Source of the DNA: Gaertneriomyces semiglobifer
Lineage: Eukaryota > Chytridiomycota > Chytridiomycetes > Spizellomycetales > Spizellomycetaceae
Direction of reading: 5' to 3'
Length of the DNA stretch: 64,000 bases
NCBI GenBank assembly: GCA_025558075.1
Contig: JAHLKF010000001.1
Span: forward strand, 186,001-250,000
Shown here: positions 3,146-38,212 of the stretch, piece after piece
How the letters are laid out: each line of letters starts with the position of its first letter
How positions within the stretch are numbered: the first letter of the stretch is position 1
Translations under genes and position numbers: made by a program
The notes under the pieces: generated by a model
Database searches by the model: none
Seen by the model: only the letters and a program-made list of their open reading frames with translations
Told to the model about the DNA's origin: nothing

Positions 3146-5729
3146 TCAACGCCACTTGTAGCCGCGAACGGTTTCCGTTCGTATCCTTGACAACTTTGCG
3201 GGGCAGTTCGGCTTGGCCTCTCTACTTTCGCTAGAGCCCGCGGCTGCCATGTTTTCTTTGAAGCCGTGCCTTGCCCGGACAAGTTTCGATGACGCAGCTG
3301 GATGTTCGTGCTGTTTTTCTGATGGATATTCGTTAACGGAGTGTAGTCTCCTGAGCCTAACCATTTCATTGGTGGTTTGACCGATGACTACCGAACTACG
3401 GGAAGACGTCAGCTTTGGGTCAACGTTCGAGTGTGCATTCGATTTCCCTAGTGGCAAACGTGCATTTGAAGCGTCGTTTGCACAATTTATTGACGTCAAA
3501 ACCGAACGTTTTGTGTTGCTCGTGCAATTGGCGATAGCTTGTGGATAAACAGCCCGCAAACCTCGGCAGGCTGACACGGCTGCGGTTGATCGCCCTCGGG
3601 TACCGTCTGATTCTGAGCTTTTATTAAGAGAGTCCTTCTTTGCAAGAGAGACTGCGCCGTTGTTAGCGGTTCGCGTCGTACATGCTGAATAGGAAGATCT
3701 CGAACTGCGAACAATGGTAAGGGATGCAGTGGATTGTGTGCGGTCGAGGAAGCTCTTCGATGGCGATACTGGTAACGAACATGTTGAGAAGGTGGTGTCG
3801 CTAGTTGTATCACGTAAAGAGCTCGATCTTCGGACAAGGCCATGAGCAGGGTTGACAGAAATTCGCCCCAAGAGCTTACTGGTCCGGTCCCGGTTGATGT
3901 CAGGCAACGCTCCTGAATTAGCGCGACAGATAGAGCCAAGAATGCTCGCTGTCATGCCAGATTGCTTTGTAAATTTGTCCCTCAGGGCAGCCACAACCGT
4001 TTTAGCAGTTGACACTATTGAGCCCTTTGGAACAAATGGCCTCATTATGGGAGTCGCCTTTGGAATACTGGATGTCGTTGTAGATGCAACCACTGCTTCG
4101 CGCGTTGCATTAAGCGTCGTTTTCACAGCTCCTTTCGCAGCTGCATTCGAAGCAATGGAATTCAAGGATCTAGTTTTGGAGATATTGGCCCGTTTCTGGG
4201 CAATGGCTTGTTTTGCCGGTTGTTGAAGTTTAGGAACCACGTGACTGCTTGCCATTGAAACGCTGCAATTCGTTGATCCAGTTGTAGAAGCAACTTTCAA
4301 TTGTTCAGCTGTCTCTAGTTGCTCACGTACGGCGGTTATAGTGACTCCTTGTGCAATTTTGGAAGAACGGCCTGGAAGCCTTGTATCCGGTCGGGAGGCT
4401 GGAGTGTATCTCTGATGAATCATTCGTCGCAACCCGTTATCTGGAGGCGCAGCCACCTGAGCCTTTGCAGAGACACTAGAGCGGAAGCCTGCCTCAGCTG
4501 AGATCTGATCCTCTCGTGAAGTCGGAGGGACGTATCGTATATTACTATTGCTGCCAAAAAGTTTGGATGCTCTCCTTGCTGTCAATGTGCTGCAGGATGG
4601 CCTCGAGGACAAGGCGGGGCCATTGGTGTGGACTGGCGAGAAGAGCCTCCTACGGACCCTGTTGAGGCCTCGCAAGTGCGTCTGGACCTTGGGATCGCCT
4701 TCGGAAGTTGTCACAGAGTGTTCTGCTGGGTGATCCGTGACTGTGATCTTCAAATCAAACGAAGTCCACGCCGCTCCGCCTCTGATAAGGAATTTTTGGC
4801 TGAACGTTCCCGTGCTTATCGGCCGCACATAGATCGTAACCAGTGCGCGTTTTCCAGGTTCAATCACTCCCTCCGTGCTGTCCAGAACGAAGAGCTTCGA
4901 CTTGCACAACTCGGTACGTCGGTCGAATTGGGATGCATTAGCCAGCACTTTCTTGGCAGGGCCTTGATTGTAACACCGCCATGGCAGGTCGACTCCTGCA
5001 GGGTTCTCAATGACGCATACTAGCTTCGACGCATCGGCCGAGGTTATTGTCGGCAACGTAATGATGCCGATAGTAGCAAAGTCTGGTGGTGTTACCACTA
5101 TCTTCTTGAAATAAAGCTAGTGACGGGGGCTAGTCAATGAATGAGATTCTGGTGGAAAACGCGCGTAGGCCGGAAAGACTTACCTGTGACGGCTGCTTCT
5201 TCTTGCGGCCCTTTGGTGAATTGCCAATCACGTCAACGAACTTGCCGGTGGCATCGCGCCGCGGCGTCCCAAACAAGGGCTGTCAAAAGCAGAGTGATGA
5301 GAAGGTAGGTTTCGGAAAGTAGCTCTTCCTGACCCATACCCGTTCCTCTGGGGGAAGTCGTTGGTCCAAGGCCCCAAGACATTCAGAGCGCTCCTTGAAG
5401 TACGAGTCGGCGTGCCTTCGCTCTCCATCAACGAACAAGGTCTCCTGGGACGCGTCCGACATGCACGCATCGTCCGTCCCTAGGGACCACGGGTCATCGG
5501 TTGGTAATTCTGTGAAGCAGTCCGAAAGTCACCACCTTGAAAGAAATAGCGCACAATGCTCCAATCTAGTACTTACCATTAAGGTCGAGTGGCAGACCAG
5601 CGGCGGCCTGTTCTAAAATTCCAAAACAAAAAAAGAAACATTTTAGCTGTGAAGATTCATCAAAGATCGACAAACTTACCTACCTGCGGCCAACGCGGAG
5701 AATTCATCAAAGTCATGGAAGGCATCCAT
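3146..5729 (-). CDS. Protein with PapD/ASH-like domain and long disordered Ser/Arg tail
   Basis: A five-exon model starts at ATG 5729 (MDAFHDFDEFSALAAG), after an in-frame stop upstream. Small exons follow: EQAAAGLPLDLN, then ELPTDDPW through ALDQRLPPEER, then PLFGTPRRDATGKFVDVIG with GRKKKQPSQ. They join the long exon at KIVVTPPDF near 5100. Each join has a GTAGGT/GTAAGT/GTATGG donor and a pyrimidine-AG acceptor. Residues about 120-240 look like an immunoglobulin-type PapD/ASH (ASPM-SPD2-Hydin) domain: FATIGIITLPTITSADASK, VIENPAGVDLPWRCY, GVIEPGKRALVTIYVRP. The rest, about 450 residues, is basic, Ser/Thr/Ala-rich and probably disordered. ASH domains occur in centrosomal, spindle and ciliary proteins, which would suit a flagellated fungus. 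That is inference from one domain; I cannot name the orthologue. Confidence 0.6.
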
Positions 5730-36597: not shown

Positions 36598-38212
36598 ATG
36601 CCACCTAAAAAGAAGGTCGAAAGTGTGGAGAAGCCCCTGTTGGGCAGACCTAGTAACAATTTGAAGATGGTATGTTGGTAAGGTCGTCCGGGGGGGTGAC
36701 CTGTTCTGTTTTCCAATCTGCCAAACAGAGGCACTAAATGGAGTGTGCTGTTTTGTCCAGGGGTAATTACGCTTGCGAGTTGCTCGTGCGTTCGTGGACT
36801 TCCATCTAAAGATACTCGTCCCACTTTCAGAATAGTGGGTCTACCCAATGTGGGAAAATCCAGCTTCTTCAATGCCTTGACCAACAGCTCTGTCGCCGCA
36901 GAAAACTTCCCTTTCTGCACCATTGATCCTTCCGAGGCTCGGGTTGCTGTTCCCGATGCGCGATTCGACTGGCTCTGCGACTTCTACAAGCCAGCGTCCA
37001 AAGTTCCCGCGTTTCTGACCGTAACCGACATCGCTGGTTTAGTGAAGGGAGCCGCCGAAGGTAGTTGCACTTTCTCCTCCGCGCATTGGGTCTTTTCATA
37101 ACCAAGATGTTCAGGCCAGGGACTTGGCAACGCCTTTTTATCCCACATTCAAGCTGTTGATGGCATTCTCCATCTGGTCCGTGCATTCGACGATGCAGAC
37201 GTTATTCACGTTGAGGGAGATCTCGACCCTGTGCGTGACATGGCCATCATCCATGAGGAACTTCGACTGAAGGACGAGGCCTTCCTGACCAAACAGGTGG
37301 AATCCCGTGCACGAGACGTAACGCGCCTCGGCAAGGGAGGAGGTGCTGCTGATAAGGCCAAGAAGGAAGAGTTTGAGATTCTGCAAAAGGTCCACAAGTG
37401 GGTGGTGGACGACAAGAAGGATGTTCGGGAAGGGCTTTGGAACGGCAAGGAGATTGAACTCATCAACAGCCTTCACCTCATTACCGCCAAGCCCGTTGTC
37501 TACCTGGTATGTTGAACCACCTGTTATGCTAGCGTCAATCAGAGTTGTTGACATCCTTTAGTGCAATCTGAGCGAGCGCGACTACTGCAGGAAGAAGAAC
37601 AAATGGTTACCGAAGATCAAAGCCTGGATTGATGAGCACCATCCTGGGGATCTCTTGATTCCCTACTCTGGTGTATTAGAGATGCAATTGACCTCCATGA
37701 CATCCGATGAGCGGAATGCGTATTTGAAGGGCTTGCAGGAAAAGTATGAGCTTCCTGTCGCTGTCACCTCCGTCCTACCGAAGATTATCGTTGCGGGATA
37801 TAATGCCCTGCAGCTTATTTACTGTAAGTGTTACTATTCAAGCAATGTACCTATAAACGTGGATTTGACGATGTTTGCATTAGTTTTCACTGGCGGTCCG
37901 GATGAAGTACGCGCTTGGACTATCCGAAAGAACACTAAAGCCCCACAAGCTGCCGGCACAATCCATACCGATTTTGAGAAGGTAAGCCTTTTGCGCCATG
38001 AACTGCGGTGTGTCCAACTAGGTGACCCCCACTTGCACTAGGCTTTTATCATGGCTGAAGTCATGAAATATGACGATCTCAAAGAATTGGGCTCTGAAGC
38101 CGCTGTGAAAGCCGGAGGAAAGTATGTACAAAAGGGTAAAGAGTATGTTGTCCAAGATGGAGATATTCTATACTTCAAGGCCGGCCAAGTGAACGCTGGA
38201 AAGAAGAAATAA
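36598..38212 (+). CDS. OLA1: Obg-like ATPase OLA1/YchF
   Basis: Ribosome-binding P-loop ATPase; cytosolic. Exon 1 (36598-36669) gives [20 protein letters not shown] ending NLKM. The next large exon (from 36831) continues as [20 protein letters not shown]. Joining these directly breaks the frame. A 2-nt exon GG at 36761-36762 would restore it and the conserved Gly ([14 protein letters not shown]). Later parts show [38 protein letters not shown] (switch 2 without the GTPase Gln, as in YchF), [25 protein letters not shown] and [16 protein letters not shown]. The TGS domain follows, with [20 protein letters not shown] and [14 protein letters not shown], ending GKKK. NLSE takes the place of the NKxD guanine motif, consistent with ATP preference. 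Six or seven exons. Confidence 0.93.
36761..36762 (+). other. Candidate 2-nt microexon (GG) in OLA1
   Basis: The bases GG sit directly between ...gttttgtccag and gtaattacg.... The left acceptor has a pyrimidine tract and an ACTAA branch-like site about 25 nt upstream (36733). The right donor GTAATT is followed 68 nt later by TTTCAG. The flanking introns would be 36670-36760 (91 nt) and 36763-36830 (68 nt). Only this, or a sequencing error, gives ATG-GG-A = Met-Gly in the invariant stretch. Confidence 0.6.

Follow-up and report, generated by a model that had tools for sequence, protein, structure and literature searches.

A two-nucleotide exon predicted in the OLA1 gene of the chytrid Gaertneriomyces semiglobifer

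The pre-mRNA of the OLA1 gene of the chytrid Gaertneriomyces semiglobifer very probably contains a constitutive exon of two nucleotides, GG, at positions 36761-36762, which would be flanked by two GT-AG introns that are removed sequentially. Positions are those of the window, the whole stretch of 64,000 nucleotides that we analysed (C1:186001-250000), which belongs to an assembly of 20.86 Mb in 66 contigs. On the plus strand, 36598-38212 comprises a complete gene for OLA1, the eukaryotic YchF-type ATPase, with a product of 408 amino acids when the GG exon is included. In particular, this product scored 443.1 bits against TIGR00092 over residues 21-400 (curated cutoff 279.2), which places it in the OLA1/YchF family at full length, and 537 bits against the solved structure 2ohf; moreover, the peptide encoded by exon 1 is similar to the N-termini of 20 aligned OLA1 proteins. 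(The public record of the OLA1 protein of Powellomyces hirtus, P0004, bears the product name 'threonine---tRNA ligase', which is apparently wrong.) The parts of the gene as we read it are listed below, all on the plus strand.

36598..36669, plus strand: OLA1 coding exon 1, 72 nt, 24 residues, ending ...AAC AAT TTG AAG ATG, phase 0
36670..36760, plus strand: predicted intron 1, 91 nt, GTATGT...TTTTGTCCAG
36678..36683, plus strand: competing donor GTAAGG, which with acceptor 36830 leads to a TGA stop
36732..36738, plus strand: CACTAAA, putative intron 1 branch site with its A at 36737, 23 nt upstream of the intron's 3' end
36761..36762, plus strand: predicted microexon of 2 nt, GG, supplying bases one and two of the glycine codon GG|A
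36763..36830, plus strand: predicted intron 2, 68 nt, GTAATT...CCACTTTCAG
36804..36810, plus strand: ATCTAAA, putative intron 2 branch site with its A at 36809, 21 nt upstream of the intron's 3' end
36831..37060, plus strand: P-loop coding exon, (GG)A ATA GTG GGT
37115..37506, plus strand: coding exon
37562..37823, plus strand: coding exon
37884..37981, plus strand: coding exon
38042..38212, plus strand: last coding exon, stop codon included

The argument for the GG exon begins with the reading frame. Exon 1 ends in phase 0, and the sequence that follows acceptor 36830, A ATA GTG GGT, lacks two bases for the frame from exon 1, just as a sequence-only reading of this DNA had stated. That reading had also held that a single intron occupying the interval between exon 1 and the P-loop exon (36670-36830, 161 nt) shifts the frame; indeed, if GG is skipped and all 161 nt are removed, a stop follows after 55 amino acids. 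The two bases GG sit between TTTTGTCCAG and GTAATT, and their inclusion leaves the protein unbroken, with the P-loop intact within a 15-residue junction segment that includes LKMGIVGLP. Since retention of intron 1 or of intron 2 would produce just 27 or 25 amino acids, respectively, and skipping of GG just 55, correct splicing of this transcript is presumably obligatory. We enumerated the two-intron arrangements of the junction, allowing GT-AG, GC-AG or AT-AC introns of at least 30 nt and requiring an open frame, and obtained 845 combinations. Both introns are GT-AG in 247 of the 845, and 33 of the 247 retain NLK together with a 10-residue downstream segment. Exactly one of the 845, that with the GG microexon, yields the full 15-residue junction segment, and the other 844 were rejected on protein sequence.

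The further claim, that the phase fits no other donor, is not strictly correct, as 18 single GT-AG introns leave an open frame (donor 36639 with acceptor 36830, for example, or donor 36674 with acceptor 36835). One such intron, with another donor and acceptor, could give a slightly altered OLA1; intron 36674-36835, with MVLGLPN at the junction, is what our own gene model (described below) falls back on when exons shorter than 3 nt are forbidden. However, none of the 18 retains LKMGIVGLP, and all were rejected on protein sequence. Each would lose or displace the glycine before the P-loop, yet 116 of the 117 matches that carry the segment, among the best 120 of 7,996 matches, have this residue. 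We therefore give a single GT-AG intron of this kind a very small chance. The same count bears out the earlier claim that GG restores a conserved glycine, which is also present in 2ohf (KIGIVGLP). Three of the 120 listed matches are gene models without the junction segment, and the sole match among the 117 that lacks the glycine is the gene model of Gaertneriomyces sp. JEL0708.

The JEL0708 protein is the closest among the matches listed (98% identical; Gaertneriomyces is a genus of Spizellomycetales) and differs from OLA1 of the window by five residues outside the junction. At the junction it is annotated NLKM-VCC-IVGLP, a reading that, judged from the protein, requires ATG GTN TGY TG before the intron and Y ATH GTN after it. 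In the window, ATG is followed by GTATGTTG and then by the donor GTAAGG, and the same choice of donor here leads to the TGA stop. A splice at the counterpart of donor 36678 is the most probable origin of the JEL0708 annotation. As far as the protein tells, JEL0708 would have the same donor region and the same two missing bases. The third base of the glycine codon, A in the window, seems to be C or T in JEL0708, a difference that would be silent if GG precedes. The annotation thus carries what looks like a frame scar, and suggests that a gene finder tripped over the same microexon in JEL0708.

This scar bears on the simplest objection to the GG exon, namely that an assembly or sequencing indel has corrupted TTTCAGAATAG and that the true exon begins GGA after one ordinary phase-0 intron. 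A two-base error would give a frame break of the kind seen, and one intron is simpler than two. However, the JEL0708 protein is encoded on a contig of 1,054,020 bases, whereas the window lies on one of 1,960,441 bases, so the two come from different assemblies; the scar, which by the protein would require the same two missing bases, points to an equal break of the frame in another assembly and makes an indel error unlikely. Nor does the junction contain a long homopolymer (seven consecutive G at 36690 fall within intron 1), and the well-scoring split around GG would have to be mere chance. An indel accordingly strikes us as highly improbable. As a separate observation, the gene models of Borealophlyctis nickersoniae and Dinochytrium kinnereticum (P0019 and P0074) break right after NLKM and lose the P-loop segment, with P0074 resuming at SSFFN; an intron or a hard-to-model exon at this position may be common to more chytrids.

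The splice signals were assessed with a gene model of our own that uses no homology. It was trained on 264 kb (C1:1-180000 and 186001-270000), starting from long open reading frames and from donor and acceptor matrices that were set by hand from consensus sequences and then re-estimated; the two introns flanking the GG exon were outside its training set. The model yielded 149 confident predicted introns with a median length of 63 nt, and it picks the 2-nt exon unprompted (111.4 nats; the best path that avoids exons shorter than 3 nt reaches 104.3 nats). With parameters taken from 180 kb outside the window, though with gene calls from the joint model, the GG exon was chosen again at all four intron penalties tried, by small margins of 1.2 to 4.8 nats.

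Ranked against the 149 predicted introns, intron 1 has its donor at the 88th and its acceptor at the 85th percentile, whereas intron 2 is weaker (donor at the 11th, acceptor at the 25th percentile). Indeed, 7.7% of all GTs score as well as the intron 2 donor, and the competing donor 36678 stands above it at the 57th percentile. The branch-like ACTAA that the sequence-only reading had pointed out is found as CACTAAA, and both putative branch sites lie within the usual distance range of predicted introns. They fall at the 43rd (intron 1) and 39th (intron 2) percentiles, though equal best sites occur in 21% and 23% of random 65-mers, respectively. With 125 of the 149 predicted introns measuring 50-95 nt, lengths of 91 and 68 nt are ordinary; only 13 of the 149 measure 161 nt or more. 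(The predicted lengths form a main cluster at 50-79 nt and smaller groups near 150-166 and 237-246 nt.)

How often chance would supply such a split was estimated from 20,000 dinucleotide-preserving shuffles of 36676-36815, in which we counted splits of equal or better score. A GG exon scoring equally well arose in 2 shuffles, a 2-nt exon of any bases in 6, and an exon of 2, 5 or 8 nt that keeps the phase in 51. None of the 31 other predicted introns of at least 110 nt contains an exon of 1-3 nt with an equal score (the best reaches -3.8, compared with +1.2 here). At 2 nt the candidate is well under 15 nt and has AG and GT flanks with usable introns on both sides, as judged by sequence signals that include the weak donor of intron 2; it is also needed for the frame of a conserved protein, for which one alternative that keeps the protein has to be weighed.

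That alternative is a single non-canonical TA-CA intron, 36671-36829 (159 nt), cut one base inside each canonical end. Its excision would leave G and G, and hence an mRNA identical to that produced with the microexon; among single excisions of any motif that start at 36640-36719 and end no further than 36844, no other restores the 15-residue segment, and this one fits the JEL0708 protein too. Against it, the arrangement AG-GG-GT with well-spaced good signals, as rare in the shuffles as we have described, is left unexplained, and introns as long as about 160 nt are infrequent among those predicted. We know of no established class of spliceosomal introns with TA-CA ends, and regard this reading as highly unlikely. 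Because the two mRNAs are identical, cDNA, RT-PCR or RNA-seq alone would be ambiguous as to the source of GG.

To place the microexon among other calls of the gene model, we note that the model yields 8 internal exons of at most 12 nt in 70 genes, the GG exon included, and that in one gene with two tiny exons the joint gain is 6.8 nats, compared with 7.1 nats for OLA1, although the 3-nt exon of that gene looks false. When frame breaks were simulated at predicted introns, 8 of 298 were rescued by an exon of at most 5 nt and 4 of 298 by one of at most 3 nt; two of the eight rescues (4 and 5 nt) gain more than the GG exon of OLA1. Four of the seven other tiny exons, in three genes, were examined, the remaining three being in a gene on the minus strand of A at 164767-173305. 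One of the four, the 3-nt exon of a WD40-like gene (C1:264892-264894, minus strand; L021 about 4892-4894), has a longer-exon alternative that looks more complete, and by comparison with WD40 proteins it seems to lose part of a repeat; it is probably an artefact. Since this exon looks false, we take the gene model as support for the GG exon and not as proof by itself. Taken together, the frame, the conserved glycine, the splice signals and the frame scar in JEL0708 concur, and the two-nucleotide microexon that had been proposed from the sequence is upheld as the best explanation of the junction.

If the GG exon is used, each of the two short GT-AG introns, with its own branch site, would be recognised by intron definition, and the two would be excised one after the other in separate reactions, joining ATG|GG|A and so restoring the conserved glycine before the P-loop. 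We propose sequential removal because splicing complexes cannot occupy splice sites two bases apart simultaneously. Stepwise intron definition is likely, since an exon-defining complex does not fit on two bases and the AG of intron 1 would share bases with the U1 site of intron 2. Guo and Liu likewise suggest stepwise removal by intron definition in the case of the 1-nt Arabidopsis exon (PMC4674806). Stepwise removal would also be a property of a stwintron or a recursive splice site, in which an inner intron interrupts an outer splice signal and no sequence remains between the two; fungi are known to have stwintrons (PMC9024468, PMC12403724). Here, however, the frame requires two bases in the mRNA, the loss of all 161 nt leading to the early stop, and what lies between AG and GT is GG and not zero bases; we find this explanation scarcely credible.

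The GG exon perhaps originated in the Gaertneriomyces lineage, where a second intron may have been gained two bases from an older one. Three DNA queries against the organism's own genome, meant to reveal a duplicate of the 5' region of OLA1 or relatives of either intron, returned the locus itself only; BLAST among the long predicted introns gave no match at E 0.01, and the Spizellomyces protein, run against viral contigs, brought up no relative. In a protein search with the open reading frame that reads through intron 2 (7,980 matches), LKxG precedes the segment in 89 of the 120 listed matches, and nothing resembling the read-through of intron 2 was seen in the other 31. A few of these 31 start in what may be an intron of other organisms.

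If the proposed splicing is correct, an early-diverging fungus whose introns are short needs a two-base exon for a conserved ATPase, and this exon would offer a compact natural substrate on which to study intron definition at splice sites two bases apart. Frame scars in close relatives' gene models of conserved proteins would be a cheap route to such exons. There is also a general pitfall, as a GG microexon inside a GT-AG interval mimics a TA-CA intron, so that cDNA alone can mislead; conversely, if the TA-CA reading were true, the apparent microexon would be hiding a new class of intron. Spliced as we propose, the GG exon of OLA1 would be among the smallest exons known. In the open-access literature, judged partly by titles and abstracts, we found no case of a 2-nt exon, a 2-nt microexon or a chytrid microexon. 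One candidate for the wording '2-nt exon' was a table entry on exon 2, and a candidate for a chytrid microexon concerned a relative of animals in which microexons were sought at 3-15 nt.

Several known systems resemble the predicted arrangement in part. Fungal stwintrons, like the OLA1 junction, involve two U2 introns removed in consecutive reactions, and use of the most distal sites leads to a frameshift; they keep no exon sequence between the introns, whereas OLA1 would keep two bases (PMC9024468). Zero-nucleotide recursive splice sites similarly bring together an adjacent acceptor and donor that are used successively, but they retain no bases, whereas in OLA1 two coding bases would be retained between short introns (PMC13149111). 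Among fungi, a paper on Trichoderma Xlr2 describes microexons as 3-30 bp long, usually multiples of three and often linked to isoforms, cites microexons of S. pombe and calls work on fungal microexons limited (PMC11121469). The GG exon of OLA1 shares the fungal setting of these Trichoderma and S. pombe microexons and differs in being 2 nt long, frame-restoring and presumably constitutive. The closest parallels in size are the 1-nt exons of plants: that of Arabidopsis APC11 has been proven to be constitutive (PMC4674806), which contradicts the earlier suggestion that 2 nt is the extreme lower limit, and those of APC11 and VPS55 are reported to be conserved in plants (PMC8831610). The plant exons are, like the predicted GG exon, ultra-short internal coding exons that are needed for the frame, were missed by annotation and have AG and GT flanks, and for both APC11 and OLA1 intron definition with stepwise removal has been proposed. 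Ultra-short exons are thus already known, and the OLA1 case is unusual in its size and host: compared with the plant exons, it is a predicted exon of 2 nt in a chytrid, set between short introns of 91 and 68 nt.
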